Below are positions 10,115 through 61,649 of a DNA stretch of 64,000 nucleotides, piece after piece. The stretch comes from Glomus cerebriforme (Eukaryota > Glomeromycota > Glomeromycetes > Glomerales > Glomeraceae). Position 1 is the first letter of the stretch. Every line of letters begins with the position of its first letter. The notes beneath the pieces were generated by a model. The model was not told the origin of the DNA, did not search any database, and was given only the letters and a program-made list of their open reading frames with translations. Made by a program: the position numbers and the translations under genes. The stretch lies in assembly GCA_003550305.1 (NCBI GenBank), contig QKYT01000113.1, positions 122,988 through 186,987 on the forward strand. Reading direction: 5' to 3'.

Positions 10115-10709
10115 NNNNNNNNNNNNNNNNNNNNNNNNNNNNNNNNNNNNNNNNNNNNNNNNNNNNNNNNNNNNNNNNNNNNNNNNNNNNNNNNNNNNNN
10201 NNNNNNNNNNNNNNNNNNNNNNNNNNNNNNNNNNNNNNNNNNNNNNNNNNNNNNNNNNNNNNNNNNNNNNNNNNNNNNNNNNNNNNNNNNNNNNNNNNNN
10301 NNNNNNNNNNNNNNNNNNNNNNNNNNNNNNNNNNNNNNNNNNNNNNNNNNNNNNNNNNNNNNNNNNNNNNNNNNNNNNNNNNNNNNNNNNNNNNNNNNNN
10401 NNNNNNNNNNNNNNNNNNNNNNNNNNNNNNNNNNNNNNNNNNNNNNNNNNNNNNNNNNNNNNNNNNNNNNNNNNNNNNNNNNNNNNNNNNNNNNNNNNNN
10501 NNNNNNNNNNNNNNNNNNNNNNNNNNNNNNNNNNNNNNNNNNNNNNNNNNNNNNNNNNNNNNNNNNNNNNNNNNNNNNNNNNNNNNNNNNNNNNNNNNNN
10601 NNNNNNNNNNNNNNNNNNNNNNNNNNNNNNNNNNNNNNNNNNNNNNNNNNNNNNNNNNNNNNNNNNNNNNNNNNNNNNNNNNNNNNNNNNNNNNNNNNNN
10701 NNNNNNNNN
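10115..10709. other. Assembly gap (595 N)
   Basis: A run of N, preceded by an 18-base T run, suggesting the assembly broke in a homopolymer or repeat. Single Ns also occur near 10918-10921 and 10969. Confidence 0.99.
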
Positions 10710-19819: not shown

Positions 19820-19869
19820 AGTCACATGTGACTTCATAATATAATTATATTATAAAGTCACATGTGACT
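19820..19869. repeat. Near-perfect 50-bp palindrome
   Basis: AGTCACATGTGACTTCATAA at the start mirrors TTATAAAGTCACATGTGACT at the end. The centre ATAATTAT is self-complementary and only one base pair of the 25-bp arm mismatches. CACATGTG is itself palindromic, so the site presents two identical 14-bp palindromes. Confidence 0.9.
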
Positions 19870-20200
19870 TAGATTAGATTATGAAGGTAACTTCATAGTC
19901 TGCCAGTATCTTCATAATATAATGGTGAGTTTATAGTCTGTTGGTAACTTCATAATATAAAAGTAACTTTATAATATAATGGTGATATTATAATCTAATT
20001 ACATGATCTGGTGATAACTTCATAACCTACTATTCATATTCTGATAGTGACTTCATAATCTACTTATGGGTAGCTACTTTGCATTTATAGCATTGTTTAA
20101 CTGTTTCCTGTATAATATGGTAGTAACTTCATAGTCTAAAGATGACTGGTAGTGTTTTAATTTAATAGTGATGTCATAATCTAATAATAACTGCTTTCTT
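19840..20200. repeat. Interspersed short repeat (GTAACTTCATAATMTAATGG)
   Basis: At least ten variants of (G)TAACTTCATAATCTAATG occur between 19840 and 20200, spaced irregularly at 15-45 bp. A further copy (ggtgacttcataacctac) sits near 31084, outside this block, so the motif belongs to a dispersed repeat. No coding frame. Confidence 0.6.
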
Positions 20201-20388
20201 CTTATTCCTAATTCATTTACATAATAAAATCTATATTGCTGATTCTGGCTTTCCAGTCTTCTTTGAATATCTGGTTCTATAATGAGGATGCTGGCCCTTT
20301 ATACTAGTTTGGATACTAGTTCTATATTAAGAATTCATGCTTATTTGGTTGCCTTTCTAAATGCTAAAATGTGGTAAAAAAATCACAT

Positions 20389-20670
20389 CAGGTGGCACAG
20401 TAAATTTGCGTTTAATTTCGACTGACACTATGCCATAATTTTAGCTGATCTTTAGGACATGTGATTTGAGGATCCAACTTGGCACCATGATAGCGATCTG
20501 GCAGTATCTGGAACTCTCCTAGAACTATCATAAAACTAGCAGGAAACTAAGTATTTCTATTAGTTCGCCAGTTTCAGGCCAGCTTGGGTGTCGAATTATT
20601 ATATTCAAAATTCTGGCCAAAAATATGGAATAGTGTTGGCCAAAATTAAACGAAATTTTACTGCACCTTA
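20389..20670. mobile_element. MITE-like element, GGCCA family, with about 45-bp TIRs
   Basis: The left end (AGGTGGCACAGTAAATTTGC then GTTTAATTTCGACTGACAC) matches the reverse complement of the right end (AAGGTGCAGTAAAATTTCG then TTTAATTTTGGCCAACACT) over about 45 bp with scattered changes. The interior has two ctggccaaaa/ttggccaaaatta motifs as in the elements at 2105, 12739 and 48594. No coding capacity; the frame at 20528-20713 overlaps its right end and is discounted. Confidence 0.7.
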
Positions 20671-20679
20671 TTGCGTTAA

Positions 20680-21590
20680 TCATATGATTCAGTTCTTCAC
20701 CAGTTTCGGGCACTTTCTCGTCACTTTCTCATAACTTTCTCATTACTTTCAAGGGTCAGTTAGTTAAAGGATTAAAAATTCTATTTAACAAAAAAAAAAA
20801 GAAAAATTAGGATTCTGATAGGCATTACTATAGCCAGCCCATTTGTTTGCCAGAAATGCATACTTTGCAACCAAAGCAACTATTATCCATTTGTTGCTGG
20901 TACATGTATGCTAATTTCACGTCCAAAGTTAGAGGTGCGATAGGCATTATTATGGCCAGTCTTTTTGATTAATAGAAAGTATACCCTTTTGCAACCTAAC
21001 TATTGCCTATTAGTTATCAGGTATGAGTATCCCAATATTTGAAATATTAAAGCGCATTTATATTGTATTTCTATCATATTTTCAGGCATATTAGAATGCA
21101 AAATAGGGCAGAACTAGAATGCAAAATAAGACAGATTTTATATGTGCCATTTGCAATTCTATTTTAGGAAAAAATTAGAAAATTTACTGGATCACTTCCT
21201 AGGGCAGAGTTTGTTATATGAGAAAGTGTTCTTTTTTTGTTTTAATGTATTCCTGTATTAACTGCCTTAGGTATCCTAGGTGTTCTAGTAAAAATAAAGT
21301 TATATAAAAAAAATTATTTTTTCTCTATGCTATCTTTTCAGAAAACTTGTTAATAATGTTAACGGATTTAGAAAAATAAAAAAAAGTATAGAAGTTCAAT
21401 TTTTTCTAGGTCACCTAAGTCATCTAGATCAGATCATTTAAGAAAATATTCTAGCGATCTAATAAAGTTAATTTGCTATTTTGCTTCTGTCTCAGAAAGT
21501 CAAAATTTTCCTAGGTCACCTGGGACAGATTTTTTTAGGGTAGATTTTTTCTGAGGCATCTAGCTTCTTCCTATAATAATATATTTTTGA
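20680..21590. other. Intergenic region with a two-copy diverged phrase
   Basis: No supported gene. A block near 20811-20905 ('gcattactatagccagccc...gcaactattatccat') is repeated in diverged form near 20940-21035 ('gcattattatggccagtc...gcaacctaactattgcc'), so this is an old duplicated repeat. Near 21400-21560 'ttttctaggtcacctaggt' recurs three times. Confidence 0.5.
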
Positions 21591-21639
21591 ATGATACTTA
21601 TCTACATGTAAATTACACATTTCATACAATGACACAGTG

Positions 21640-24600
21640 GGTTTTTCACACTGCGTGCAAGGGTTTCGCTGGCACCTTTTCCAATGGATTTAATGGATTT
21701 TACATCCTTCTTGCTGATTACAAACCCTCCCACACATGTTTCCTTCGTTGAAAAGATATTGGCAGATAAATTCATCTCTTATTGGGTATTTCTTAAATTT
21801 CTATAATTATTTTTCATTTAAACCTTTTTTTCAGGACAATATACCCCGAGTATAAATTATTGTGTAGCATTCAAAAATTTCACTATATCACAATCTGAGC
21901 TTTCAGACTTCTTCAACATGCTTCCCTTCTATTGTGGGTTTAAAGTCTCTGATATAGGTGCTTGCTTTTATAAAATTTGTAATGATAGTGTTAGACCAAG
22001 AAATTTTCTAGGTGCAGACAATAAGAATGGAATAGAAGCCATACTCACAGATCATGAAGGCCATTTTCTACACAAATTTATTAATGGTGATGAACTACTT
22101 CATCCTATTATAGATTTTGATTTACCAGTAGAAATATTAAATGCTATCACTCCCAAGCTTTCAAACAAATAGGCAAAAAATTTACTTTGTTGTGCCTTTA
22201 GAGATACTTGTCTAAAAATATTCCCAAAATGGGATAAAAAACCTATGACTATTGCCAAAAGTAGTGATGCAAAAAAAATATCTCTCCATATCTCAACTTT
22301 CGGCATAAGACTCCTAAATGTTGCTTAGGTCATGATGTTCACTAAGCTTGTCTGTAAGAAACTTCCAGAAGGGTTACAAGGAAAAGATATTATTGATAAT
22401 ATTGCAAATAAATGATTATTTTTCTTGCAGATAGTTGGACATCCAAATTTATTGAAGAAATCGAAGAACACATTCATGTGAAAAAAGCTATCAATCCAAA
22501 AGATGGGACTATCTTTGACTTTATGATTCGCCCGCCTAATGATGAATCAAAAGTCATAAAAAGTTCTCTCTTAGCCGTTCCAGAGCTGAAAGTCAAAAGA
22601 TGTAATGATATAAATAGTGAAATCACTGAAGTTGAATTTGAACTAGTAGAGAAATTGCTCAAAGAGACTAGCATTGAAGAATTTAACCTCTTATTTCCAT
22701 TAGAACAATCTCCTGATGTCTTTTCTCTTAAACGTATAGCCCTATCATATTGTTCATTATGTGACTAAGAGCATACTAATGAAAATGCATATATTATATG
22801 AAATAAAAAATTATATAGTTTTCATTGCTATCATGCAGACCAGAAAAAGCCACCAGGAATAAGAAAGCCTTCAATAAAGTTTGCTCTTAGTGAGACAGCT
22901 TTAAGCTGAGAAAAAAACCTTCTAGCTTCAGTAAAATTAGAACAATCAAGAATTTCAAATCTGAATGACCATTTTGTGTGGTGGAATTTAATACGTATGT
23001 GTACTTCAGGTAAGAAATTTTCCTGCAATGAAGTTTATGAAGCTATCCAGGCAACAGTTACCCATATTCCAAAGAATAAACCAATATGGTTACTAAAACA
23101 TAAAGATTCAAAAAATAGGCTTTATTTTGGTATGGGATCTGAGTTAAAGATTGCCAAGTTTGAAATTAAAATAATCAAATATAGGGTAAAAGTGTAAAAC
23201 AGTAAAGTTAAAATCATTAATAGACCAGGCAGTTATTAAAGGTCTAATCATTTATGAAGATTATGACTTCCTCCTATACCCTATAAGCGTTCCTCAACCA
23301 GATTTAGATTTTTTTAACCTTTTTCTAGGATTTTTGGCTAAGCCGGTGACAGAAGTTAATAAAGAAATTATGAATCTGATTCTCTGATATATATTAAATG
23401 TAATTTGTGATGAAAATAAAGAGCTTAATGAGTATATCTGGAACTGGTAGGCATACTTGGTACAAAAACCAGAACAGAAGCCTCGAATAATCTTAGTACT
23501 AAAATCCACTTTACAACAGTGCAGGAAAAATATTATCACTGATTTTATTGGTGATAAAGTCTTGGAACAACATCTTCATTTTGCAACATCAGATTTAGAA
23601 AAAATTTTTGAGCGCTTTAATAGTGCTATTCAAGCTCGAAAGCTTATTGTTATGAATGAGACTGGGATGTTTAATGGGGAATGGCATAAATTTAACGGAC
23701 ATCTCAAATCTCTTATAACAGAAGAAAAGGTGACTATAGAATATAAAGGTCTTGAAACTAAGAGATTAAAAGATTTTGCCAGATATATGGTTACAAGCAA
23801 TCAGGATGCTCCATTCAAAATAGATATAGGAAATTTTCGTATAGTCTGTTTTGAAGTCTCGCACGCTGTAGGGGCAATATACCATATTTTGACTGGCTAG
23901 AAGAAATTTTAGACCATCCTAATGCACTAGGAGCAGTTATAACATATCTTCTTAGCCAAGATTTATCAAATTAGAATCCTGGAAAAATTTCTGCAACTAA
24001 AATGAAGGTAGATATAATGTATGATTAACTTTCTAATCCTATTCAGTTTATAATAAATCATATTTCCTTATGACCTGCGAAAAAAATTGATAGGCCATAC
24101 CATACAAATTTATATTAAGAATACCTTGCCTGGTATGAAAATAATGGAAAAAAACTATTTACCAATTCTATTCTTAGATAAAAATTTTTGCTTATTGGTA
24201 TTTATAGAGTACATTTACAAAATGGTGGAAAAAGAGATTATTATTATATTCTTGATTGCTCCAAAATCATAGCCAAGTTTCGTGAATCTGGTCTAGGTGA
24301 TATTGAGGAGTTTTCTGATACATCTCAAGCAGACTTACCAGCAAACGAGACCGCAGACATACCCATATTCAATTTGCCAGAAAACACTTCCTTAAAAATA
24401 GTCTCATCTCAACCAAAAAAGAATGCATTCTTTTCTAGTAATAAGAAAGCAGATAATGATCCAAACTCTTTTTGATTTGTGACAGAACAAGCTGAAGCTC
24501 CAATCACCTCCACATCTGGGATATTCAAGATTTCTAAGACTTCTGAATTATCTGAGCCACTAATCGATAAGCCTGAAACCAGTAAGTCTCCCAAATCTAT

Positions 24601-24960
24601 CGAACTAAGTAATAAAAAAACATCTTTTACATTCCCAACTAGATAATAACACGAGAAGCATCTCAGAAAAAGGGCAAATAAACTTGGCAAGAATCCAGAT
24701 GTCTTTGTGACTATTACAGAAAAAGACAGGCTCGATTTTACCACATTTCAATATAAAATAGAAATGGATACACAAATGTGTGGTTATGCAAAAGAAGTGG
24801 AGAAGATCCCAAAGAACATATGGGAAATGACAGTATGAGAAAAATTAATAGGAGAAGAGATTATCTGATGTGAACTTGAGAATAAAGGACTCACATCCTC
24901 GTGGCTTGATACTGATGAGAAATGGCAAAAAAATGTAAGCATACTCCAGGAGAATAGTAT
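21640..24960 (+). pseudogene. Broken primase-helicase (archaeo-eukaryotic PrimPol fused to a D5-like/DUF5906 helicase)
   Basis: Reading through several stops and frame changes, one long plus-strand protein can be followed. Near 22105 is IIDFDLP, the DxD metal site of archaeo-eukaryotic primases. Near 22283 is ISLHIST, the SxH motif. Near 22750 a CSLCD..EHTNENAY..FHCYH pattern resembles the zinc-binding segment between primase and helicase in D5-like proteins. From about 23280 to 23900 comes the DUF5906 helicase core: FFNLFLGFLAKPVTEVNKE, then YLVQKPEQKPRIILVLKST with a Walker-A-like QQCRKN, then KLIVMNETG, LKSLITEEKVTIEYKG and MVTSNQD. From about 24060 to 24475 is the charged C-terminal region. 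Stops include 22171, 22327 and 22412, and are commonly CAG-to-TAG or CGA-to-TGA. DUF5906/D5 helicases replicate viruses, virophages and self-synthesising transposons. This copy is dead. Confidence 0.8.
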
Positions 24961-25045
24961 GCTTTGGTAAAGAGCGAATAAGAAGCCAGTTTATAAGTGA
25001 GGTGTTTGAATAAGAGGGTCTTTTTTTTTCTTTACAATTAGGCAA

Positions 25046-25358
25046 TATATAAATCCAAATTATTATTATTTTTCACTGATTATGAGTGGGGTCCGCATAT
25101 AGAGAATTGTCAGAATATTTTTTTCGAATTGAATTTTTTTGGATATAGAATAACCTAACAGTTTTACATAATCTAGTAGTTACTTCACAAGCTATATCCA
25201 CACAACTATGTTTGTGATTGTAATAAAGTATATTGCAGAATACAAACTCAGTAAAGATATGAGTAATGAAAACTTAGCCAGCACGCCAGGATCCCGAATA
25301 ATATATGAATAGGTAGGATTTGAGTTTGCTTATTGAACATAGAAAATTTTTACCCCTA
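25046..25358. other. Spacer between the primase-helicase relic and the gap
   Basis: No gene seen. The sequence runs without coding signal into the assembly gap. It may be part of the same decayed element. Confidence 0.4.
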
Positions 25359-26078
25359 NNNNNNNNNNNNNNNNNNNNNNNNNNNNNNNNNNNNNNNNNN
25401 NNNNNNNNNNNNNNNNNNNNNNNNNNNNNNNNNNNNNNNNNNNNNNNNNNNNNNNNNNNNNNNNNNNNNNNNNNNNNNNNNNNNNNNNNNNNNNNNNNNN
25501 NNNNNNNNNNNNNNNNNNNNNNNNNNNNNNNNNNNNNNNNNNNNNNNNNNNNNNNNNNNNNNNNNNNNNNNNNNNNNNNNNNNNNNNNNNNNNNNNNNNN
25601 NNNNNNNNNNNNNNNNNNNNNNNNNNNNNNNNNNNNNNNNNNNNNNNNNNNNNNNNNNNNNNNNNNNNNNNNNNNNNNNNNNNNNNNNNNNNNNNNNNNN
25701 NNNNNNNNNNNNNNNNNNNNNNNNNNNNNNNNNNNNNNNNNNNNNNNNNNNNNNNNNNNNNNNNNNNNNNNNNNNNNNNNNNNNNNNNNNNNNNNNNNNN
25801 NNNNNNNNNNNNNNNNNNNNNNNNNNNNNNNNNNNNNNNNNNNNNNNNNNNNNNNNNNNNNNNNNNNNNNNNNNNNNNNNNNNNNNNNNNNNNNNNNNNN
25901 NNNNNNNNNNNNNNNNNNNNNNNNNNNNNNNNNNNNNNNNNNNNNNNNNNNNNNNNNNNNNNNNNNNNNNNNNNNNNNNNNNNNNNNNNNNNNNNNNNNN
26001 NNNNNNNNNNNNNNNNNNNNNNNNNNNNNNNNNNNNNNNNNNNNNNNNNNNNNNNNNNNNNNNNNNNNNNNNNNNNNN
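25359..26078. other. Assembly gap (720 N)
   Basis: A run of N between the primase-helicase relic and the tyrosine recombinase relic. Several single Ns follow near 26245-26262. The repeat gtttgcttagcagag occurs twice just after it (about 26170 and 26211). Confidence 0.99.
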
Positions 26079-26269
26079 TACTTAATCTCAAAAAGTAGGT
26101 TTTGAATGCCGATTTTGAGTTTAATATAGAGAAACTACAAATTTTACTTAATATATATGTCACAAAACAGTTTGCTTAGCAGAGCCAAATTTTCTTAAGT
26201 CATAATGAGAGTTTGCTTAGCAGAGTTGAAAATAGTTTGCTTANTNATCATAGTAAATTTTNAAATTTT

Positions 26270-27382
26270 CATCTGACCTATACATAGATTGTTCGGAGTC
26301 CTAGTACGCCCCAGAATTACTTGAGTTTTTGATAGATAAACTGAAAAGAGATAAGGGCCGTCAGTGCTTCCAAAAAGGATATAATTTTAGCAGAAAGTAG
26401 GCATTTGTATTAGTTCCTAATCAGAGAATTTGTCGAAGTAGAAGTTGAGTATCTCCCAAAGAAGGAGGGGATAAAGCAGGGAAAGTTAATATATGCCAAG
26501 TATCTGACATCATCCCAGACGAAAAAACTATCGAAAGTATAGCTCAGTATATTGTCTGAGATAATCTTAGTAAAAAAAAAGTAAAGGTGATAGCCAAACC
26601 TTTAACTGTAATGTTCTCTAATCCTGTCACCATCACATCCTATCTTAGTAGACTCTGAAGAGAGTTGCGGGAATTTAATGCCCCAGAAAAAATAATTTCT
26701 ACTATATTAGATGATAAAACAACCTACGCATCTAATAAAATTTAAAAGGAGCATAGGGTTCAACATGAAAATGAAGGGATCGATTTTTCAGATCACTTCT
26801 CGTTAGAATCAGTTAAAAAAAGATTGGATAGGTATGATATATCCAATGCACCCAATTTACAAGTTCTAGCGATATAATGATAATGCTTTATATCCATCCT
26901 GTTGAAATTAAAGACTTGCGCATTTCTAATAGAAGTGTAACTGGGTATTCAAAAAACTGAGAACAGTAGGATAATCCTCAGGTATTTAGATTATTAGAAA
27001 GAAATGAAGAGCGGGCTAAACTTTTCCTTACTTGGATTTAGGGTGCAATTTCTTCTGGACAGTTGAGGGATCCAGGAGTACGAGGGGTTAAATGGTTTAA
27101 TACATTTCTGAAAAAAGATAGATTTCTTTCTGAAACTGGTAAACCACTCCTCTTTAGCTATTTACGCAAATTAGGGGCAGTATTTGCAGTCGTATCGAAT
27201 AGTGCAAAGAATTTATCAGAGGCTATGACCATTGCCAGTCAAGTCCTTCAACATTCATCAGACAACTATGTCTCTTCAGCGCAAAACTACACAATAGTAA
27301 ATTATCGGTTAAAGGATAACCTTATGATCAGGAAGAGGCAATCAAGATCTTTGATGAAAATAGTTCCTAAGGAACCAAACTA
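26270..27382 (+). pseudogene. Broken tyrosine recombinase (Crypton-like)
   Basis: A plus-strand frame of about 370 codons can be followed with stops at about 26302, 26398, 26446, 26548, 26656 and 26743 and one frame change near 26877. The N-terminal part is a SAM-like core-binding region. The catalytic part has HPVEIKDLRI, where the family's first catalytic Arg (RPAEIKDL) reads His, then KWFNTFLKKDRFL and LRKLGAVFAVV with the second catalytic Arg, SNSAKNLSEAMTIASQ and QNYTIVNYR with candidate catalytic Tyr residues. The stops are all explicable as CAG/CAA-to-TAG/TAA, CGA-to-TGA or TGG-to-TGA. This family is highly repeated in Glomeromycotina to my knowledge. The lost Arg and the stops mean this copy cannot recombine DNA. 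It shares strand and decay pattern with the primase-helicase relic upstream. Confidence 0.75.
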
Positions 27383-27511
27383 ATCACATATAAGGGTTAA
27401 AGGGGATCCTAGAGGGATCAGATTGGAAGGACTGATTTATCAATCTGATATTATTTATTAATTTTATTTTTTCGTTCACCTAAAGATATGTCATATATAA
27501 AATATTGCAAA

Positions 27512-28399
27512 ATGGAATTAACCAATGATCAAAATCATTCATCTGATAGTACACATAGCGAGTAGGAAGTTATTAAATATACAAAGAAATTAGCGCAGAT
27601 ATTTGGACTAAATGAGAAAAATGCAGAAGTGTATACTGTGCTTTCCGGTGAAAATAGGGTATTAAAGAAACAATTGGAAGATTATCATTCCCAGTATAAC
27701 ACTTTAGAAAGAAGAGTAAAAAGATTAGAAAAAGATGTAAAGTCCTTAGAGACCAAATTAGAAGATCTTGACGAATGTGTAAATAGGGAGACTCTAGTCG
27801 ACTTAATACAAGAAATAGTTTTCTTGCTGATTGGTAAAAAAGGTAAGAGAAAAAAAGGATGTCCCTCATAAGTAACGAAGAAAAGTACGACTGAAAAAGG
27901 TTAAGCAGATAGTAGTTTAAAGTGAGCCAGAGGGGTTTGAAGAATTAGGCATTTTGCATGATCACTTGATTATCTTACTGAGCATTGAATAGAGATTTAT
28001 TTTTGAATATTATATATACCATAATAAAATGATTGTTGTAAATTGTGCAGTTGAAAAAAATATCCCTATTAGGGCAGTAATTGATTCAGACGCTGATATA
28101 TAGACAAAGGAGGTAGATTTTGAATGGTCTAAAAGAAAGACTCTTTTCAATTTTCACACTATGTCATTGGTTCAAGGTGAAAATACAGTCAAGGATTTTT
28201 ATTCGAAGCTGGAAGAGTGTAACAAGAGTTTTGGCCATAGTGAAGAATTCCTTAAATGCATATTATTAAAAGGATTATTACCTGAAAATAAGATTAAAGT
28301 TTTAATGGATGGTTTACAAGCACTTGCATTAGATGAGATACTGGAGAGGAGCAGTGATCGCGTAATTTTTCCAAAGGTGCTTTGCTATTTTTTCGTTTG
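27512..28399 (+). pseudogene. Decayed coiled-coil / retropepsin-like / gag-like unit
   Basis: An ATG at 27512 starts a frame (MELTNDQNHSS) with an early TAG at 27563. It continues as a strong coiled coil near 27640-27790 (ENRVLKKQLEDYHSQYNTL, ERRVKRLEKDVKSLETKLED) up to the stop at 27869. In another frame, near 28030-28100, comes VVNCAVEKNIPIRAVIDSDAD, resembling a retropepsin active-site strand (DSGAD in the family), then a stop. The same frame carries a gag-like helix region at 28161-28399 (VKDFYSKLEECNKSF, LLKGLLPENKIKVLMDGL). I read this as the remains of one or two retroelement-derived genes. A TATA-like atatataaaa lies just upstream of the ATG. Confidence 0.5.
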
Positions 28400-28407
28400 A
28401 AGATACA

Positions 28408-28418
28408 ATATATAAAAT
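28408..28418 (+). promoter_or_regulatory. TATA-like box of the F-box/LRR gene
   Basis: TATATAAAATA lies only about 10 bp before the ATG at 28428. If it works at the usual 25-35 bp distance, transcription would start inside the coding region. Confidence 0.4.
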
Positions 28419-28427
28419 AGAATATTT

Positions 28428-29239
28428 ATGGTGCAATCAAGCATCTTTTATTTACCAGAACTATTAGAACAGATTTTACATTTTTTAGCGATAGATAAAT
28501 CCCTCTATCCCACTCTATTTGTTTGCCAAGATGCGGTGCTCCCATTCTATGGAAATGCATCGACTTAAAGGGAAATGGCTATTATTGTGCAAAGAATCCC
28601 CCTCAATTGAAAAAATTCATAAAATTAGTATGTGGAAAGAAACAACCAGTTTATAGCTTGAATCTAACTCATCTTGAAATTTCATACTACCATCCACTTT
28701 CTGATAAAAAAATCAATAATATTGTGTGCTTATTTCCAAATATAATTCATTTGGATTTCAGAAAAAGCACAGGATATAGCGATAAAGCACTAAATCGAAT
28801 AGTAGAATCATATCCAAATCTGAAGCATCTCAATTTGGGAAAGGATAAGTATGTAAGCAGTCATGCTGGAATAATAACTGATAAAGGCCTGTTTGCTTTA
28901 GCAAATGCATGCCATAAATTAGAATATCTAAATATTTCTCACCGCATAGAGATTACCAGAACATCGATTTCTAGTATTATTCGTTCTTGTCCAAGGCTCC
29001 AGGAACTCATCCTTAGTTTTTGTGGAATTACTGATGTGATTATCGGAGAAATTGCTTGTTCATGTCTTAATTTAAAGTATCTTGATCTGGAGGGGTGTTA
29101 TAAAATTAGCAAAGAAGCCGTAGATCAGCTAAATCCGAATATCCATGTTGAGAATTTCAACAATGTGTCCAACCCTGATCTTATTTCCGCATTAAGTGAT
29201 TATCTTAGACTGCCCATCAGAATTTGGCACATGCTTTAG
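28428..29239 (+). pseudogene. F-box / leucine-rich repeat protein with a frameshift
   Basis: The ATG at 28428 opens MVQSSIFYLPELLEQILHFL, an F-box start, followed by a YPTLFVC segment. Near 28525 the frame shifts and the protein continues as [15 protein letters not shown] and about 230 residues of leucine-rich repeats of the AMN1/F-box type: [80 protein letters not shown]. The protein ends normally at 29239. F-box/LRR proteins act as substrate receptors of SCF ubiquitin ligases, and the family is expanded in Glomeromycotina. At the frameshift a few residues usually found between the F-box and RCGAP appear to be missing, so a small deletion is likely. It is otherwise intact, so a recent break or an assembly error are both possible. 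Confidence 0.75.
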
Positions 29240-29269
29240 ATCACTCCACTATAGCTATAATCAGACAAG

Positions 29270-29580
29270 CGCCAAGGGATTATTCGGTAGCATTACTCGA
29301 CGATCAAGCAGAATGGTGAAACTCTACCGATCTAACTAATCCGGAGCGGTGATCATAACATGAAGGTGCTAGAGATATCAAGACTGAAATTCAAAGCAGA
29401 TTGGGGGCACCATTTAATAAAATCCCTCTCAAAATTTGTATAATTCAAGCTGGAAGTGTTATTGAAAGGGAAATGGACGGGTACGATCAGTTTTCTGAAA
29501 TTTTTACTTTTGATGAGGAGCCTAAAGCAGAGCACTTCCATATCACTGTATACCAAATAATTTTCTGTATCATGTAATAG
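29270..29580 (+). pseudogene. Possible fragment of a Crinkler-type N-terminal domain
   Basis: Between about 29350 and 29560 one plus frame reads IQSRLGAPFNKIPLKICII, then EREMDGYDQFSEIF and HFHITVYQ before a stop. The order (charged segment, acidic turn, then H-I-x-V) is reminiscent of the ubiquitin-like header of Crinkler proteins, but the match is weak and the reading frame has no clear start. It could also be unrelated. Confidence 0.25.
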
Positions 29581-29807
29581 CGATATAGTCGCAATTTATG
29601 TATTGTAAGCCGGTTCCGGCAATATTTTTTATTTCATAAATAAAGTATTATTTTATCGAACGGACATGAGAAATGGATCACGTGCAATGATGCAATACCT
29701 GTGCGACATAAAACCTATATTAACGCCCAGTAATTTCTTTCCCGAATAGAAATAAATTTTTATCTCACTCCGGAACGTAACACTATTTTTTGTCCGAGCC
29801 TAATAAC

Positions 29808-29814
29808 CATATAA
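29808..29814 (+). promoter_or_regulatory. TATA-like box close to the SAM-nuclease start
   Basis: The sequence atataaaa lies within 15 bp of the start codon at 29822. Confidence 0.35.
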
Positions 29815-29821
29815 AAGCGCT

Positions 29822-30913
29822 ATGTCTACCTCAACAGCTGAACACGACTCTTACTTGGTTGAGAACTGGGACACAGAAACCCTTATCGATTATTTGAAAG
29901 AGCAGAACCTCAAGCTCGATGATAAAAAGCACTATGATATTCTTCGTAACCGAGAAATTGTCGGTCAGGACTTTCTTGACATGAGTAAGGAAGATTTTAT
30001 GCAAACTGGACTGGAAATGGGACCAGCTATGAGACTTGCAAAAGAGGTAAGACCCTCAAAGAAAAGCCGAAGCGTGTGTTCTCCTCGTACAAAAGTTTGA
30101 GCGAGGTGTTAGCAAAATACGGTATTGACTCCAATGGTACGGACACCATCCCACTATTTACTCTACAAACCTACGAAATTAAAGACTCCGACAAGCACTT
30201 CGAGCATTGTATAGCAGAAATTTTAGTTAGGCTAAAAAATTACGGGTCTTTGGTCGTGGATAGTTTGGAAGCTATGCGCAATGAGTACGTCGTGGCGATT
30301 CTTCACACCGCAATCAATATCACAAGAGATTCTACAGGGGAAGAACTCAGCATGAGACTTGAGTACGAAGTAATTGGTGATGATAGCACAGGACGGGTCG
30401 ACTTCGCAATCAAGGTATTATGATAATTTTTTTTCCAGGACCTGTCAATTTCCTGACATTTTTTTCGAAGATATACTAATACCATACTTGTGTTTCAGAA
30501 AGCCGAGAATCTTATTTGTGTCACTGAAGACAAACCAGAGCGAAATCTAATCGAGGGGTTGGCTCAGAATATCAAGCAACTAGAGAGCTCATGCCAAACG
30601 AATTTGAGAAAACGGAAGCGGAATGATGATAACGATTTCGATTATCTCTATGGTATTGTCACTACAGCTCGGGACTGGCACTTCCTATTATACACTCCGG
30701 GGGTAATTTCACAAGGTAGTAAATTACCATTTAGCATTGAATTTTCCGAAGATGCTTTTGGTTAAAGAGTCCGTGGAATATCAAATGTTACGTAATGGCG
30801 TGAAAAAGGTGTTGGGCGTAGTAGTGGGTTTATTAAAGGATAGGGCATGTGCGGAAGACGATCCTCCCTCAAAGAAAAAGGCTAGAATAGAGGAATATCG
30901 TTCGAAAAAATAG
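29822..30913 (+). pseudogene. SAM-domain plus PD-(D/E)xK nuclease-like protein with two one-base frameshifts
   Basis: From the ATG at 29822, residues 14-80 form a SAM domain (WDTETLIDYLKEQNLKL, EIVGQDFLDMSKEDF, LEMGPAMRLAKEV). One base appears to be missing at about 30046-30050. The next frame continues with EKPKRVFSSYKSLSEVLAKY and a helical region to 30414. An 84-nt intron follows (AAG|GTATTA..TTTCAG|AAA, 30415-30498). The joined exons give RVDFAIK then ICVTEDKPE and LAQNIKQLES, the D...E-x-K...Q signature of PD-(D/E)xK nucleases as in Crinkler-type effectors. A second one-base change in a T run at 30756-30759 shifts the frame again, after which a Lys-rich tail (KKKARIEEYRSKK) runs to the stop at 30911-30913. 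Each break is a single base, so the gene is either recently broken or misassembled. SAM-nuclease fusions are thought to serve in conflict or effector roles (inference). Confidence 0.7.
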
Positions 30914-31131: not shown

Positions 31132-31182
31132 CTAACGAACTTTTGAATAATTCTCATCTTATATAAACATCTATTAACAAAC

Positions 31183-31821
31183 ATGTCATCTGAGCTTGAA
31201 TCATTGAGACAGCGCATCAGCGAGCTTGAGGGTAGGAATAACGTGCTTGAGGAAAAGAATGCCAAGCTTAAAGCAGAGAAAACGAAGCTCGAGCAGGAAT
31301 TCAGGAGCCAAATTGGGAAGTTGGAGGCCAGGAATGCTGAACTTTTAAAGCAACTTATGGAAGGGAATACCAAGCGCGATGTTGAGAATGCTGAACTCAA
31401 GTCTAAAGTCGGGGAGGTCGAGTCCAGACTCGCGATAGTGGAACAGGGTTCTTTTGTGATGAATGGGCAACCACAGAACGATAAAGAAGCGAAACTAGAG
31501 GAAATGATATCAGCTGTTAATACACCTGTTATGGACCAATGCGATCAGACGTTCTTAGAAGATAAGGAAACGGATTCTTTCTTGGATGAGGTGCATAAGA
31601 AAAAGGTTAGTGATGAGATTAGACAACGCAGTAGGGATAAGAAACTTCAAGCTCAAGAGTCTCTTTCAATACCGCCTGAAGAGAAAAGGCTGACTCAGTT
31701 AATATCTGAAGCATCGGCTATTAATGCACTTCCAGTAGACCAGAAACCTTTGGATTCGAAGTGCAAGAAAAAGAAGGGTGTGGATAAACTTAAGCAAGAA
31801 TTATTCGTCTCAGGAGTCTAG
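31183..31821 (+). CDS. Coiled-coil protein of an expanded fungal family
   Basis: An intact single-exon frame of 212 residues. Residues 3-95 are a long heptad coiled coil (ELESLRQRISELEGRNNVL, EEKNAKLKAEKTKLEQEF, RNAELLKQLMEGN). Residues 120-150 hold DQTFLEDKETDSFLDEVHKK followed by KKVSDEIRQRSRDKKLQAQE. The C terminus is Lys-rich (CKKKKGVDKLKQELF). The layout (coiled coil, then a DxFLDEVHKKKVSxxIRQR motif, then a basic tail) is one I associate with many-copy genes in Rhizophagus, function unknown. There is no signal peptide or membrane segment. Codon use is richer in G and C than in flanking genes, similar to the SAM-nuclease and F-box genes upstream. Confidence 0.75.
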   Translation: MSSELESLRQRISELEGRNNVLEEKNAKLKAEKTKLEQEFRSQIGKLEARNAELLKQLMEGNTKRDVENAELKSKVGEVESRLAIVEQGSFVMNGQPQNDKEAKLEEMISAVNTPVMDQCDQTFLEDKETDSFLDEVHKKKVSDEIRQRSRDKKLQAQESLSIPPEEKRLTQLISEASAINALPVDQKPLDSKCKKKKGVDKLKQELFVSGV

Positions 31822-50495: not shown

Positions 50496-52206
50496 TTAAC
50501 TATCACCACTATTAGGATAAAAGTAGAAAGCTAAGGCTATAATGATGTATGTGGCTAGTAACATAGCACCTTCTAACCAATTGGATTCACCATCCTAAAA
50601 AAAAAGAGCAAAGTCATTGTTAATATTTACAAATTTTAATTAAAATAAAGAAACACAAATAAATTATTACCTGAATGAGATAATTTGTTATCAAAACTGC
50701 AATGAATAGTACAACAGTTTCAAATGTTTGGAAAAATAATGTCATTTCTTGATTTATTATCCATCCGAGTATAACAAGTAATGGTGAAACGAAAAGTGCA
50801 ATTTGCTAAAAAGAAATTGTCATAGTTTAGAATAAAAGTGAAAAAAAAAAGTTTTTTTTTTTGAGTAAAATATACAAAATAATTACCATAGAGCTGCCAG
50901 CCGCAACATTAATAGCAAGATCCATCTTATTTTTTACTGCAACAGTTACTGCGGTAACATGCTATATAAAGGTAAAAGATACTTGTTAATTAATTAAATT
51001 CATTTTCTGTTGACGAATTAAAAAATTTTTACGATCATTACCTCAGCAGCGTTACCAACGATAGGCAATAAAATTAAACCGACAAAGGTTTTGCTTAATC
51101 CAGAAGATGTAACAATACCTTCGATTGAACCAACTAAATATTCAGCAGAAAAAGCTACAGCAACAGTTACAAAAGCCAACAACACTAATGACATAAAAAT
51201 AGTTAATTGAGGTTCTTCTTCCTCCTCTCGTTCTTCTTTGTATAAATGCGTATGAGTTTTCAGCTAATAAACCAAAAAGTTACAGTTTTACATGATGAAA
51301 AGTATAAAACGCTATACCGTAAGTTTATTGTTGTACTCACTTGAAACAAAAGGTAAAGAATATAAATTATCAATAAAACAACTGCTGTTCCGTGAGACAA
51401 ATTTAAAAGTTCTCCTTTTCGTTGTTCAGGAGTAGTAGTAGTATGGGTAGTAGTATTATTAGTATTAGTGGACATAGATTCAATAGATGAAATAAAAGCC
51501 GCGGGAATGATTAAGCCGATACATGCCAAAGCCATTAGACTTGAACTCGTTTGTGCAGCAGTCTGATTAAATTTTTGTTCTTTATAATAAAATCCTCCAG
51601 CAACAAAACACATTCCTAATACTAATAATAAATTTGAAATAATTGACCCAAGAATTGATGCTTGAACTACGCGTATTTGTCCATCCTTGAGTGCTATTAT
51701 GGCAACAATTAATTCTACTGCATTACCGAAGGTAGCGTTTAACAGACCACCAATTGTCTACAAAAAAATAGGGTAAAAAGATTATTAATACGAGATTTTT
51801 TTTTTTATAAATATCAAAATTAAATTTGAAAAATGGTAAATTTTTCTTGAATAATCTTAGTAAATACCTGTCCAACTCTCATACTAATATCTTCCGTTGC
51901 AAATCCGAGCAATTTAGCTAATGGAATTATAGCTAAAAAATTTAGAATGAAAACTAAAGTATCGCTCCATTTTAATCCATGAGCTATATATCCAAGCGGT
52001 ATAAAAATTAACAATACGTTAATCCATGAGTTAAATAATATTATTTTAATGGATTTAAATATACTATTTGATCGAGGAGAAGTATGTATAACTGTTTGTG
52101 TTGTTGGAGTTGGAGTGGGTTGTGGAGTTGGTGGCTTATTTGTTTCTTCACTTGATAATAAATCTGTACTGTTTGATGATTGTGATTTTCTCTCTGATGA
52201 TGTCAT
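50496..52206 (-). CDS. Vacuolar Ca2+/H+ exchanger, CAX family (copy A)
   Basis: Six exons: 51868-52206, 51341-51757, 51042-51263, 50887-50961, 50671-50805 and 50496-50594, all phase 0, giving 428 residues, a normal CAX length. The N terminus is Thr/Pro-rich. Conserved CAX features: [20 protein letters not shown], the first signature [20 protein letters not shown], the acidic loop EEREEEEEP, the second signature [20 protein letters not shown], then [12 protein letters not shown]. Both GNxxE motifs, whose Glu residues carry the ions in CAX proteins such as yeast Vcx1, are intact, as is the His after the second one. About 11 membrane segments. It should move Ca2+ into the vacuole in exchange for H+. 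It is the only copy in this array with fully canonical motifs. Confidence 0.93.
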
Positions 52207-52209
52207 ATT

Positions 52210-54690
52210 TATAAAGGAAGGAAATATATATCGTATTTAAAATAAAAAAGATAAAAAAATTTTCACGGAAAATACGGAAAATAAAAAATTTCCTTTTTTC
52301 TTTTTCTTTTTTTTTTGTAGCTGTATTTATATATTATTTTACAATATTACTATAAATTCTGTTTTTATTTTATTATTGTAAATGTGAAAAGATTTCTTTT
52401 TAGAATTCTTTCTAGTAATTAAATATGCATAAAAGGAAAAGATTATGGAATGTTCGACATTACATGCATAGTGTTGAATACCCGGATGAACTATGTCAAC
52501 CAGAATATTCTATGACCGATTTGATCTGCTGATTTATTGTCCAGATCCGATAATTATTAAATTCTAAGTAAAAAAAAAAAAAAAAGAGGTTGCTTACAGT
52601 TAATTAACAATGACACAAAATAAACAGTATCACAAAAATGTAACAGTTAATAATAAGCCGTACCAATTAAAGTTGGTGTGTGGTTTGACTCATAATTTAA
52701 TTCTTCAAATCAAATAGCAAATGCATTAATTTATTAACTACTTTTAATCCATGTTTGTAGTGGTAACGTACAATTCTTGGATAATTGTATTAATTTTCAA
52801 TCAATAAGAACAACAATACGTAAATGCAATACAGCACGTATTATTAGGAATAACAAATGGTCATATTGTGAAGCTAGCGCCCCAGAAATTTCTGGAAAAT
52901 GTAATTTGTGCGGGAAAACGCCCGGAAATTGTTCTGTTTTCCGACGTTTCCCGCAACTTTTCGGACATTTTATATAAATGCTGAAATTTGCCTCGGATAC
53001 TAAATAAGGAAATGATCATCCGTAAAGCCGGCCAAACTTCTTAATACATTATAAAAATAGCTAATAATAGAACGGTCAATAATTTGACATATCGGGACAA
53101 TTTTTTTACTTTTTTCATTAAAGATAAAATAACTTTCTCAATCAATAATAAGTAGGCGTAATAGCGCCGTCGCACATTTTATTAAAATATATTAGGCATT
53201 AAATGGGCGTCCAATATTATTTTCCTTTTATATATTATTTATAGGCGCACAGTTTATTTATGTATAATAAAAATAAGAACTGTACCGAGTTTATTATTAT
53301 TTATTGCATCACATCGTAACATAAAGAGGTTTAACAAAATTTTCTATATTCTTTTACTATTGTTTTTTGACGTGTTATTTATAAATTATTAGTCAAAACT
53401 GCAGTAATTGAAATTAGCATGCGTAAATAAAGTAACTCTTCTCTTAAAAGTTTCGTTTAAATCGATTTAATCAATTTACAGTTAGGATGATCCATCGGCC
53501 AATATTAACCCCGAAATTCCGTGGAATTTAATTAAGGTTTTTAACACTATTCGCCAATTCGTGAAAGATTTGCCATAAATACGTTTAAGGGATACAGGGA
53601 TGTGAAAAGTGGTATTCTGGTACGCACATGCTGCACAATAACCATTAATTGCAAAAAGAGCATAATAATAATTATTTTTACACAATAATTAGAATCGAGT
53701 GGAATTTATTTTTTTAATCGTGATCGACATTATATTTATTTAATCCTAAATAATATCACGGATGTTATTAAAACGGTACTATATTGGTATTTTAACGCCT
53801 ATTCAATCAAAAAAGTGATGTATTATGATTTAAACGTTATAAGCTACAAAGAAAATATTTGTTTCATTATCTTTATAATTTTGTCAAAGCTAATTTATTT
53901 TTTAATGACGATAAACAATACGTAGTGTTTAAATTGGATAATTAAACATACATATTAATTTAATTTATTAATTTAAAAATCACAAATGAAAATATAAAGA
54001 AAGAAAAAAAAAATAACCTGATGTCATTATCATATTACTTTTTTAAAAAATTTTTATTCACATCACAATAAGTTCATGCATAAGTCATATTACTATTGAT
54101 ATAATGATAAAGTTATTGATAATTTTCCGTCAAAACCGCTAATATTATTATTTTGTATTCCTGGTAACATCTATAATTCCTGAATATCTACTGTATTATT
54201 TCCGACGTTTGTGATACTTTAATTATAAATTGATTTAAACAATAGGTTACCGTATATATTAATTAATGAAAATCGTAGTCATTATCAACTAAACAAAAAT
54301 ATATTTGTATCTATTTATCTGGAACTGCAGCGTCAAACTCATGCATATCAGATTACGGATTTTAATGAACACATATTTGTACAATTATCTAACCATTTCT
54401 TGATCATTATTATTCAACTATTATTACCATATTAGTCCCAATGGCTTAATATAAATATTGAAGGGGTAATGTAAAAATTTTCTGGAAACAACTCCGATAA
54501 ATGATCAATTTTCTAATTTTCTAGAAATGTGAACATTTTTCTGAAAGATTTTTATAGGGTAAAAATAATAAAACTAAATTCCCTCATCTATAAAATCAAT
54601 ATGATAGAGATAAAAAAAAAATCTATTTATAATGTAACAGCTTAAAACAAATAAAATACATATTGAACGAATGAAGTCAAAATATAAATT
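52210..54690. other. Intergenic region between CAX copies A and B
   Basis: No gene seen. TATATAAATA on the minus strand near 52325-52335 may be the TATA box of copy A. A GC-rich stem-loop lies at 52910-52954 and a 48173-type repeat fragment near 54480-54560. Confidence 0.45.
52910..52954. repeat. GC-rich stem-loop
   Basis: GCGGGAAAACG at 52910-52920 pairs with CGTTTCCCGC at 52945-52954, and the inner CCCGGAAA with TTTTCCG, around a short loop. Conspicuous in AT-rich DNA; possibly the centre of a decayed TIR element. Confidence 0.65.
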
Positions 54691-54698
54691 GGCATACG

Positions 54699-56223
54699 TT
54701 ACGTGTTGAAAGTAAAAGCTAAAATTATAATAACATATGTGGCTAACAACATACCACCTTCTAACCAATTAGATTCACCATCCTAAAAAAAGAGGTAAAT
54801 GATATTTATAATGTCAGTCGAAAAAATTAGACAAATAAATCATTTATTACCTGAATGAGATAATTTGTTATCAAAATTGAAATGAATAGTACAATCGTTT
54901 CAAATAATTGGAAAAATAATGTCATTTCTTGTTTTATTATCCATCCAAGTATGACAAGCAATGGTGAAATGAAAAGTGCAATATGCTAAAAAGAAATTGT
55001 CATAGTTAGAACAAAATATTAAGTGAGAATTGCTTATCCATAAATTATTTACCATAGAATTTCCAGCAGTAACATTGATTGCAAAATTCATTTTATTTTT
55101 TATTGCGGCAGTAACAACGTTTGCAAGCTATACGAAGGAAAAATTCACTTAAAAAAAAGAAGAAATCCGACTTTTGATAAATTTAAAGAAAGTTTGTTCA
55201 TTACCTCAGCAATGTTACATACGATAGGTAATAGAATTAAACCGATAAAGCTTTTGCTTAACCCAGAAGATGTAACAAATCCTTCGATTGAGCCAACTAA
55301 ATATTTAGCAGAAAAAGCTACAGCAACAGTTACAACAGCCAACAAAAATAAAGATACAATGGGAGATAATTGAGGTCTTTCCTTTTCTTCTTGTCCTTCT
55401 TGGTATAGCTTCGTATGAGTTTTCAGCTAATAAACCAACAAGCAAAGTTATAGTTTACGTTATGAAATGAATAAAATATTGTGCCGTAAGTTTATTGTAC
55501 TCACTTGAAATAAAAGATAAAGAATATAAATTATCAATAAAACAACTGCTGTTCCATGAGACAAATTTAAAAGTTCTCCTTTTCTTTGTTCATTGGTATT
55601 AGAATTAATTTTTTCAACAGCCAAATTAAAAGCCGCGGGAATGATTAAACCAATACATGCTAAAGTCATTAAACTTGAACTTGTTTGTGCAGCAGTTTGA
55701 TTAAATTTTTGTGTTTTATGAGAAATTCCTCCTGCAACAAAACACATTCCTAACACTAATAATAGATTTGAAATGATTGACCCAAGAATTGATGCTTGAA
55801 CTACGCGTATTTGTCCATCTTTGAGTGCTATTATGGCAACAATTAATTCTACTACATTATCGAAGATAGAGTTAAACAAACCACCGATTGCCTGAAAATA
55901 AAAGAAAAAATTTTTTATATGAGGAAATTTTTTAAATTTATTCATTTGTTGATGGATACCTTATTAGCTCTCAGGCTAATATCTTTAGTTATAAATCCAA
56001 TTAATTTTGCTGATGGAATTATAGACAAAAAATTTAGAACGAAAATCCAAGTATCACTCCATTTTAATCCTTGAGCTATATATCCAAGTGGTATAAAAAC
56101 AAATAATAAATATAATAAATTAATCCATGAATTAGTAAATATTTTCTTAAATGTAGATTGTGATGGCGAAGAATATATAACTGAATCGTTTAACAATTGC
56201 GAATTTCTCTCTGGTGTTGTCAT
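54699..56223 (-). CDS. CAX-family exchanger, divergent copy B
   Basis: Six exons: 55960-56223, 55505-55891, 55205-55426, 55053-55127, 54851-54985 and 54699-54782, all phase 0, giving 388 residues with a shorter N terminus than copy A. The fold is intact, but the signatures have changed: the first reads [13 protein letters not shown] (Gly to Asp, Ala to Val) and the second CNIAELANVVTAAIKNKM (Gly to Cys, Ala to Ile, His to Leu). Both Glu residues remain. The loop is acidic/basic mixed (EGQEEKERPQ). Exons 3 and 5 have the same lengths as in copy A, so it is a tandem duplicate. It may be altered in ion choice or transport, or be on the way to loss. TATATAAAAT lies less than 25 bp upstream of the start. 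Confidence 0.85.
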
Positions 56224-56229
56224 AATTAT

Positions 56230-57165
56230 AAGAAGGATATTTTATATATTGTAATGTTTTTTTTTTTAAAAAAAAAAGAAAAGAACGATCATTAGGCAGG
56301 AAAATAGCAGTAGATAAAAATAAAATAACTAATTACGCTAGCAAAAAAAGGGTAGAATAAAAAATCCAAAATTTTTTTGCTAAAGAAAAATTATGATTCA
56401 CACACATATATATTATAATATGATCGGTTCGGGTACTGTACACATATATCCAATCTTGATCAATTGCTTGTGACAAAATTCTTTAGGATTCTTCTTACCG
56501 TCGAATATTCTATATTTCTTGTGTATCAATCGATGGAATCTTCTATGCCGATTGATCTTCAAACCTTAACCATAACGACACATTGACAATGAACAATGAG
56601 CCTTAATTTATATCAATATGGCGTGAGCTTGCATAGAATTAGGGTTTGAACTAGAAGAATCATTTTCAATATTATAAAAGAAAATTTAAAATTACCAGGA
56701 AAATGTAATGGACTGTTTTTTTTTGTTGTCGTAATCAAATTAAAATTTATAATTATAAACATATAAACATAAATTGAGGTTTTAGAGTATGGATTTAATT
56801 AATTCTTCGAATCCGACTTAATTCGGATATTTGTTTTATAGGACAGACTACAAAATATATTTATTACCCTTTTACGTTTTCGAATAATAATAGATTCTTT
56901 ACTTGTTTATATGATTTAATAGACGACAAAATAAATAATATTCTATCTAGCATTCATAACTGTCTCTCAGAAATGTTTTTTTATGACAAATCATATAGTA
57001 TATGATTGATATAATTTATTTGATATATAAATTTAAAAGTCATGATTAATAAATAAAGAGATAATAAAAATGTGTAAATTATAACTATTTATTATCAATG
57101 CGATTTATAAGAAAATCTACTGCATATTAAGAAAATTTAATTGTTAATAAAAAAAAGTTTGGCTT
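56230..57165. other. Intergenic region
   Basis: No gene seen. AT-rich. Confidence 0.45.
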
Positions 57166-57490
57166 CTAATAAATTCAAAGAATTATCTCAATAATGTTCA
57201 AAGATTTTTTAATCCAGAAGATTCAACTAACGATTCCTTTGATTGAACCAACTAAATATCCAGTACAATACAAATAAAAGTAACGATACAATAAGAAATA
57301 ATTAGGGGTTCTCTTCACTCTTTTGTCCATCTTGATACGAGCGAGTTTCAACTAATAAACCATTTCATGTGAGAAAAGATACGTTTGCTAGTGACGGCCA
57401 TTGAACTTTGTTTGAAATAATTGAGTTTGAACTTACTCTTAAATGCTATCGAATTATCGGATGTAGTACCAATTGTCTGTTATATTTATC
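57165..57490 (-). pseudogene. Heavily decayed CAX relic
   Basis: 57205-57357 aligns by eye with exon 3 of copies A and B (phrases 'ccagaagattcaactaacga', 'ttgattgaaccaactaaata' and 'agtttcaactaataaacc'), with deletions and changes that destroy the frame. 57430-57480 retains scraps of exon 2 ('gtaccaattgtct'). It lies on the same strand as A and B. Confidence 0.7.
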
Positions 57491-57986
57491 GTCATATACA
57501 AAAGTGTAGGCTGGCATATGTGGATTTTTACCAGATTACCGAAGAAAATTGGTGGTCATAAATTTATTCCGAAACTGTAATATTATTTATACATGAAATT
57601 TATAATCCATATTTGGTCAGAGGACTTCAAAATATAGAATGCTCGGAGTGTTCTGATTAATGATTTGTGAGGCGCATTTATATGTAAATCTAATAAATAT
57701 TATATTAATCTGGAATTAAAATATCAGTTTGTTTTATTTAGTCTTAAGTTTTGGTTTAAATTTCTGGCTATAATCTAAAATATAATTGTAATATATCTTT
57801 AAATGATTGATATTTAAATTTTAAATTTTAAAACTATAATTAGTAATTTATATTGGAAGTTAGTTAGAAATTCAAAGATTTATCTAGTTTATGTATACCT
57901 ATATAAATAAGGTAATAAACAAGCCAATTAGAATATATGATAATTATAAAGGTGCCGTCTGTGGATCAGAAAGTTTATTTTAAGTA

Positions 57987-58193
57987 GAGCGTCCCTGTTG
58001 TAGCCCAAACTCTACTACATGTCCCAAATCAAACTTGGGAAAAACCTTACATCCGAAACTTGACCATGTCCCAAACTAACCCAGTCTTAAATGGTAGTTT
58101 GAGACGTTAAACATTTATTAAAATTCACTAGCTTGGTTTGGGATATGGTCCGGATTTGGGACATGGTTACGTTTGAGCTACAACATCTCCCTC
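57987..58193. mobile_element. 207-bp TIR element (MITE)
   Basis: The left end GTCCCTGTTGTAGCCCAAAC ... CATGTCCCAAATC mirrors the right end, whose reverse complement reads AGGGAGATGTTGTAGCTCAA ACG...CATGTCCCAAATC, giving about 45 bp of imperfect TIR. Inside, the phrase gtcccaaa/tttgggac recurs four times in both orientations. No coding capacity. Confidence 0.75.
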
Positions 58194-58199
58194 AAATTA

Positions 58200-58895
58200 T
58201 TGGGTAGTGGCGACATTGTGCTCAAATGATGAAATCAATAGAATTATAGGCTTGCACATGCTCTTTTGATTTTGGTCGATTTTATTTAGGGAAATTTCAT
58301 TTTCATTGAATAAAAAATAATGATATCTTGAACATTCCCTATTAATTATAGAAAAAAGACGTTTTTTAACTCCCTGGCTGTTCATCAAAATAGGAAATTC
58401 TGAAACTTTATTTTTTTTTGCCGATCAGATCACTTAACAGTCCAATCAATCACTAGCCGATCACTTAAGGGAGGTGCTTGAGAACGCCCTGCTAAAAAAG
58501 TAAAGCTATTCGGCCTAACTCAATCAACTAAATCGATTCGAATAAGGTATTCTCCGTGTCGATATTCTCTATGTCGATCCGCGTTAAAATGGTTTGATTG
58601 CGGATTAAGAATTAATTTTGGCACATTGTCATTATTGTTGTCGATCGAAATTGTATAGCAATAAAGTTTAATCTTGTCAAAATAAGACCAAAAAATGGGA
58701 GGGTGAAAATCCAATGGTTTCATGTGTTAAAAATTTGACGTCTCTTTCTGGCATTTGTTGAATTATATTAAGACGGTTAGTAAATTTCAGATTACAAATG
58801 ATCATCCAAAGTCTGGAAATTTTTATATTGATTCGTTACTTAATTATTTAGTTGAAAAAATTACTAAGGTTTATAGAATTAGTTTCTTCTCTTAG
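58200..58895. other. Intergenic region upstream of copy C
   Basis: No gene seen. The phrase 'ttaagaattaattttggcac / attgtcattattgttgtcgat' near 58605-58645 recurs upstream of copy D near 61340-61385, so the duplicated unit of C and D includes promoter DNA. Confidence 0.5.
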
Positions 58896-58899
58896 AAAT

Positions 58900-60468: not shown

Positions 60469-60469
60469 T

Positions 60470-61640: not shown

Positions 61641-61649
61641 GGAAATACA

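Follow-up and report, generated by a model that had tools for sequence, protein, structure and literature searches.

A 64,000-nucleotide stretch of Glomus cerebriforme contig QKYT01000113.1 (the window, in whose positions its features are given below) carries two decayed genes, a PrimPol-D5 primase-helicase and a putative tyrosine recombinase (YR), which very probably belong to one large mobile DNA element. The window is part of contig C87, and the genome searched comprises 112.5 Mb. The PrimPol-D5 pseudogene (21822..24990, plus strand), consisting of an AEP primase, a Cys/His segment and a superfamily 3 (SF3) helicase, is broken into several frame pieces, much as the initial annotation had described it: the primase motif IIDFDLP lies in piece 21822-22169 and ISLHIST in piece 22173-22325, and piece 23451-23897 (plus strand) matches the DUF5906/D5-like helicase family of Pfam (PF19263; E = 6.4e-18), with no informative match for nine other frame pieces in the same scan. 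An assembly gap of 720 N (25359..26078) separates the helicase gene from the YR pseudogene (26303..27383, plus strand), and stops interrupt both genes; reading of the frames bears out that both are on the same strand. The gap had been placed correctly, but comparison with other copies puts the start of the YR-related block near 26303 and not at 27042. The interval first delimited, 21640..27382, does hold real genes, but the feature is wider, starting at 19820 and sharing same-strand genes with other copies to about 29356; the shared block probably extends to 30.8-31.0 kb.

The outer boundary of the element in the window is a 50-bp palindrome (19820..19869), a 96% complementary inverted repeat. 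Just inside it, at 19870..20192 on the plus strand, is an iteron-like array of ~19-bp direct repeats with the core ACTTCATA (repeat families D1 and D2), and the palindrome and array form part of a left terminal inverted repeat and leader (19820..21820, plus strand), the right edge of which is approximate and taken from the complete element on contig C796 described below.

Within this genome, 44 matches were obtained for the helicase piece (87% identity for the best one other than itself) and 53 for the recombinase-like piece 27042-27380. Pieces belonging to one place were merged or left out, giving 38 helicase places and 47 YR places, and likewise 53 places for a coiled-coil gene (from 60 matches), 97 for a leucine-rich repeat (LRR) gene (from 157, some of them unlisted), 107 for a SAM-domain gene (from 108), 46 for a family-B DNA polymerase (PolB; from 77), 97 for a packaging ATPase (from 136), and 40 for the terminal repeat (from 65, seven being joined with their palindrome). 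The counts are lower bounds, with 40 of 126 terminal-repeat candidates, 150 of 202 LRR, 150 of 161 SAM and 136 of 187 ATPase candidates scored. A YR gene lies within 10 kb downstream on the same strand at 18 of the 38 helicase places (0.08 expected), and within 6 kb at 16; no helicase place has one upstream or on the opposite strand within that distance. Among sixteen ten-kb loci fetched, all ten others that have both genes contain only 0-4 N between them, and the linkage is therefore independent of the gap in the window.

Further genes follow on the same strand in a fixed order. A coiled-coil gene (27454..27871 in the window, plus strand) lies within 2 kb downstream at 36 of the 47 YR places, with none on the other strand and one upstream; an LRR protein gene (28096..29356, plus strand; Pfam LRR, with an F-box part recognised by eye) lies within 6 kb at 34 of the 47, again with none on the other strand and one upstream. 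A SAM-domain gene (29807..30762, plus strand; Pfam SAM_1, E = 1.5e-5), probably of the same arm, lies within 8 kb at 16 of the 47 (other strand none, upstream one); the SAM family has most of its 107 places outside the element.

The copy in the window is a mosaic. Its PrimPol part is 89% identical to the copy on contig C898 and its YR part 73%; against C411 the PrimPol part is 71% and the YR-LRR part 86-91% identical. Across 21822-29243 the PrimPol part is nearest to C898 and C313 (89%), with a switch to C411-like sequence near 24.6-25.1 kb, which indicates that copies recombine and exchange parts.

The ends of the element were examined across the genome. The single strand of the 50-bp palindrome folds at -17.9 kcal/mol (z = -8.5 relative to shuffled sequences); its 25-mer half has 16 matches per strand with up to three mismatches (reversed control, 0), and its 14-bp core occurs at 20 places (reversed control, 1). 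In all 15 full palindromes, which were oriented by hand with the half-palindromes on C413 and C606 left out, the ~19-bp repeats are on one side only. All 105 pairwise comparisons of the inner sides (taken to at most 900 bp) give a match, against 4 of 105 for the outer flanks (also at most 900 bp, with one of just 57 bp), over 23-59 bp among the matches listed and off the junction. With related sequence inside and essentially unrelated sequence outside, the palindromes look like the ends of a mobile element. Ten of the 40 terminal-repeat places lead into the helicase/YR arm (one through YR alone), nine into PolB, and 21 are unassigned; at none of the 40 were helicase, YR or PolB found reversed or outside the end. 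On contigs C134 and C802 the palindromic ends are followed by 6 kb or more of interior sequence, with no PrimPol, YR, PolB or ATPase recognised on either contig; these could be divergent or non-autonomous forms.

The far end on contig C796 leads into a PolB gene, and helicase/YR and PolB genes converge within 50 kb at 7 of the 46 PolB places, with no same-strand pairs and two divergent pairs, both involving one helicase place on C280. The PolB frame on C869 (970 amino acids) matches PF00136 and PF03104, with a weak match to POL3_N, and neither PF03175, which we take to be the protein-primed PolB family, nor any other polymerase family was matched; on this evidence it is not the protein-primed PolB that characterises Polintons and Mavericks. 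Its three best matches among PDB sequences, to polymerases of 992-1206 residues, reach E = 1e-182, with the next at 1e-17; the best matches are presumably asfarvirus polymerases.

Beyond PolB lies a second gene of this arm. Thirteen places exceed the cut-off in a search with Pox_A32, and two of 14 control genomes also match, so that a lone match is no proof of a virus. A 287-amino-acid frame on C380 matches with E = 4.7e-13, frames on C738 and C205 that lie between the PolB and helicase genes have weaker matches over the cut-off, and 10 of the 97 ATPase places are within 15 kb downstream of PolB on the same strand, nine of them 8.2-11.6 kb away and one 1.8 kb away. Upstream, convergent and divergent arrangements number one, one and none (0.30 expected for each class). 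On C205, C483, C738 and C860 the helicase, ATPase and PolB genes are all present in the expected order and orientation. The element has the A32-type packaging ATPase of Polinton-like viruses. The initial annotation had noted no capsid or packaging gene; this is true of the window, but packaging-ATPase genes are present in the other arm of other copies. For the capsid, which in Polinton-like viruses is a double jelly-roll major capsid protein, the nucleocytoplasmic large DNA virus (NCLDV) profile PF04451 has no match, yet it has none in the 14 control genomes either.

One complete element was found, on C796. Its two ends face each other at 33592 and 60886, spanning 27,295 bp including a gap of ~4.1 kb whose true size is uncertain, and a 5-bp direct repeat, CCTTT, stands just outside both ends. 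It has terminal inverted repeats, as Polinton-like viruses do; these are ~1.5 kb long and 91% alike (1477 of 1618 columns identical over three main alignments), the left one holding an insertion of ~1.5 kb, and their differences are mostly transitions (140 versus 28, some of the repeat alignments overlapping). No RVE integrase was found in the 10 frames of this element that were scanned, the gap making up ~4.1 kb of it. The complete element also has a 535-amino-acid P-loop NTPase frame (L037, 2097-3704), with an nSTAND3 match below the curated cut-off; we take it to resemble Crinkler-type proteins, and it is possibly cargo.

The identity of the second gene of the left arm was considered separately. 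Tyrosine recombinases have the catalytic residues R, K, (H/K)xxR, H and Y in that order. In an alignment of 20 homologues chosen out of 120 listed, the pentad is kept in YR order as R228 (17 of 19), K247 (17 of 17), R318 (19 of 20), H347 (19 of 20) and Y359 (20 of 20), and three residues before R318 box II carries S, K or R in place of H. Comparison by hhalign with Cre, lambda Int and TelN gave no match, and DUF3435 has no match in 20 YR homologues at E up to 10, a test limited by the HMMER filters. The structure model is poor (predicted local distance difference test, pLDDT, 58), and designed helical proteins take the first four places among its fold matches, TelA and Cre being among the weak ones; the PrimPol model (pLDDT 44) gives a sensible match list for the AEP part only. 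The assignment made from the window is supported by the pentad in homologues but confirmed by no library, and the gene is best called a putative tyrosine recombinase, on its predicted catalytic pentad and a low-confidence fold.

Relatives of these genes are present in other fungi of the group. YR homologues (120 of 451 listed) come from Rhizophagus, Gigaspora, Dentiscutata, Entrophospora, Diversispora and Glomus, PrimPol homologues (120 of 127 listed) from Rhizophagus, Gigaspora, Entrophospora, Diversispora, Glomus, Funneliformis, Cetraspora and Scutellospora, and PolB homologues also from Paraglomus among the matches listed; some YR/PrimPol pairs have adjacent locus tags (RhiirA1_402625/402626 and C2G38_2160557/2160558). 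The terminal repeat covers the start codons of both PolB and PrimPol, and a near-identical start peptide is found in 12 of 45 PolB sequences (40 with fungal names and five without a name), in 5 of 12 PrimPol sequences (one from residue 5) and in none of 13 metagenomic PolB sequences. Judging from this shared peptide, other genomes probably have the two-ended design too. A PolB record of Gigaspora rosea (P0273) starts with the PrimPol N-terminus, as though one end had replaced another. In a tree of 33 chosen PolB sequences (C869 and 32 of 120 listed of 1710; root unsure, some sequences long), 19 fungal sequences fall on one side of a branch with 100/100 support, apart from 14 of metagenome type; the giant-virus copy on the chromosome of strain 4401 is not known to be one of the sequences used. 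The PolB of Paraglomus brasilianum (P0265) groups with Diversispora sequences and another Paraglomus sequence is deep, a placement that would reflect either horizontal movement or contamination. Searches of IMG/VR for relatives by alignment patterns gave 18 pattern matches for YR and 54 for PrimPol, none confirmed.

We conclude that the window very probably contains one arm, the left, of a large two-armed DNA element of arbuscular mycorrhizal (AM) fungi that replicates itself and integrates, present here as a decayed copy; we read it as a decayed element of Polinton-like-virus type with a non-Polinton polymerase. Its ends, gene order, numerous copies, unrelated flanks and decay are direct observations, and the roles of its parts are inferred. 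Its two arms read inward from matching ends, the left with the PrimPol-D5, putative tyrosine recombinase, coiled-coil, LRR and SAM genes, and the right with PolB and then, usually 8-12 kb beyond, the A32-type packaging ATPase. The terminal palindrome and repeats may serve as a replication origin or telomere, PrimPol and PolB would copy the element, the YR-like recombinase would insert or excise it at the palindromic ends, and the ATPase would load it into a capsid that is either its own or provided by a helper.

Several results weigh against this conclusion. Both full ends and the 5-bp repeat are found on one contig only, C796, and that element has no ATPase match; the gene could be hidden in the gap or missing. 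On the contig of the window neither PolB, ATPase nor a second end was found. No capsid gene was seen, the likeliest place for one, the ~8 kb from PolB to ATPase, having lain outside the stretches read. The start-peptide pattern is loose, with three further internal matches, uncounted, in the 45 PolB sequences. At ten loci including the window, helicase and YR divergence are uncorrelated (Mantel r = 0.112, p = 0.335), which together with the mosaic copy in the window indicates that the two genes are not always of one haplotype. At 20 of the 38 helicase places no YR gene lies within 10 kb downstream on the same strand, and the YR gene has no YR family match in Pfam, NCBIfam, PHROGs or PDB sequences.

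The last two of these points bear on particular alternatives. The initial annotation had allowed that its two genes, proposed as parts of one element, might be unrelated neighbours. The gap between them in the window and the unpaired helicase places would fit this, or a Crypton next to a primase fossil. Independent genes, each with its own ends, were looked for; linked pairs and ends common to the copies were found instead, and with the pairs far in excess of expectation and no gap between the genes at any of the ten other loci with both, such a coincidence is now extremely improbable and the proposal of a single element is borne out. A more serious possibility, though still an unlikely one with an appreciable chance of being right, is that the element is real and its second gene is no recombinase, another enzyme (such as a resident Polinton integrase acting in trans) inserting it and leaving the 5-bp repeat as its footprint. 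Target duplications of 5 bp are typical of DDE/RVE enzymes, and the lack of any family, profile or PDB sequence match to a YR and the designed helical proteins among the fold matches point the same way; against this stand the conserved pentad in YR order, the weak fold matches to TelA and Cre, and the 5-7-bp duplications reported for elements with YR or RVE integrases.

The genes could also be pieces of endogenised asfarvirus-like giant viruses, with PolB, PrimPol-D5 and A32 ATPase as core genes left by repeated infections. The PolB matches among PDB sequences are in keeping with this, as is the published reading of the dispersed R. irregularis polB genes. Endogenous giant viruses of the Asfuvirales would have a large genome with RNA polymerase and further core genes; the searches covered PolB, PrimPol, capsid and A32 ATPase. 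It is however difficult to reconcile with exact ends ~27 kb apart on C796, with two fixed arms, or with the separation of fungal from metagenome-type PolB sequences in the tree, and we regard it as quite improbable. Beyond the two-armed element itself, a bolder proposal is that these form a fungus-borne lineage of ~30 kb, related to asfarvirus-like viruses and resident in Glomeromycotina genomes for a long time, with a linear form that would have hairpin telomeres, the 50-bp palindromes being opened hairpins, the YR-like enzyme a protelomerase-integrase that both resolves the telomeres and inserts the element, and the dispersed Rhizophagus polB genes the element's polymerase; this we consider doubtful and offer only tentatively.

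Other features of the window may be mentioned briefly. A further coiled-coil gene (31147..31818, plus strand) is possibly the element's, being similar by eye to a coiled-coil frame on C483; the copy in the window has no defined right limit. A second assembly gap, of 595 N, is at 10115-10709, and four alike copies of a membrane-transporter-like gene, two per strand, occupy 51263-62545; these presumably resemble cation/H+ exchangers.

No published account of the element was found in the open-licence PMC literature. The comparison literature (PMC11075540, PMC8647823, PMC9894930, PMC7805220, PMC5294986, PMC12993054, PMC4642659, PMC10120064, PMC4409740, PMC10175614, PMC11071308, PMC10962738, PMC12455990 and PMC10640383), already describes Polinton-like-virus-like elements with a primase-helicase and YR, mentions R. 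irregularis Polintons without a capsid gene, and includes R. irregularis in the tree figure of a virophage/Polinton paper, the accompanying passage not naming the gene. The same papers place an R. irregularis DNA polymerase in Asfarviridae, count 15-33 dispersed polB copies per R. irregularis genome as a possible sign of widespread infection, and, in a later tree, count Rhizophagus PolB as giant-virus sequence; they also state that fungal double-stranded DNA viruses are hardly known and that two thirds of R. irregularis transposable elements are 'unclassified'. The virus-type polB genes scattered in AM fungi may be parts of mobile elements and not marks of separate infections, and if polB does sit in such elements, at least part of the evidence for repeated infection needs rereading. 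In that case a mobile element of virus-like kind would be resident in AM fungi and may be filed under 'unclassified' in repeat libraries; its exact ends make it countable in any assembly.

Among known systems, Cryptons and Starships are likewise mobile elements of fungi with a tyrosine recombinase, which in the present element is putative. Cryptons have no terminal inverted repeats and the recombinase is their main gene; the inverted repeats, replication genes and two-armed layout found here led us to reject a Crypton, and the absence of a DUF3435 match in the 20 YR homologues, within the limits of the HMMER filters, a Starship. Phage N15 resembles the element in combining a ~50-bp palindrome (its telomere site is 56 bp) with a YR-like gene, but the element's gene has no profile similarity to protelomerase and its palindromes are at the ends of an integrated element. 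With the asfarvirus-like endogenous giant virus of R. irregularis the element shares a PolB that we take to be of asfarvirus type, but that virus is reported as one 1.5-Mb insertion (Zhao et al. 2023), and the element is ~27 kb long and present in many copies. Polintons and Mavericks are alike in terminal inverted repeats, PolB, A32-type ATPase and a short target repeat; the element differs in a PolB that is not PF03175, in having PrimPol-D5 and a putative YR, and in the absence of an RVE integrase from the frames scanned. From Polinton-like viruses it is set apart by a PF00136-type PolB together with PrimPol-D5, palindromic ends, a YR outside the known families, no capsid found, host-like LRR, SAM and P-loop genes, and Glomeromycotina hosts. 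It resembles them in size class, terminal inverted repeats, primase-helicase and YR, packaging ATPase and integration in eukaryote genomes, and would work as a Polinton-like virus does, but with another kind of polymerase.

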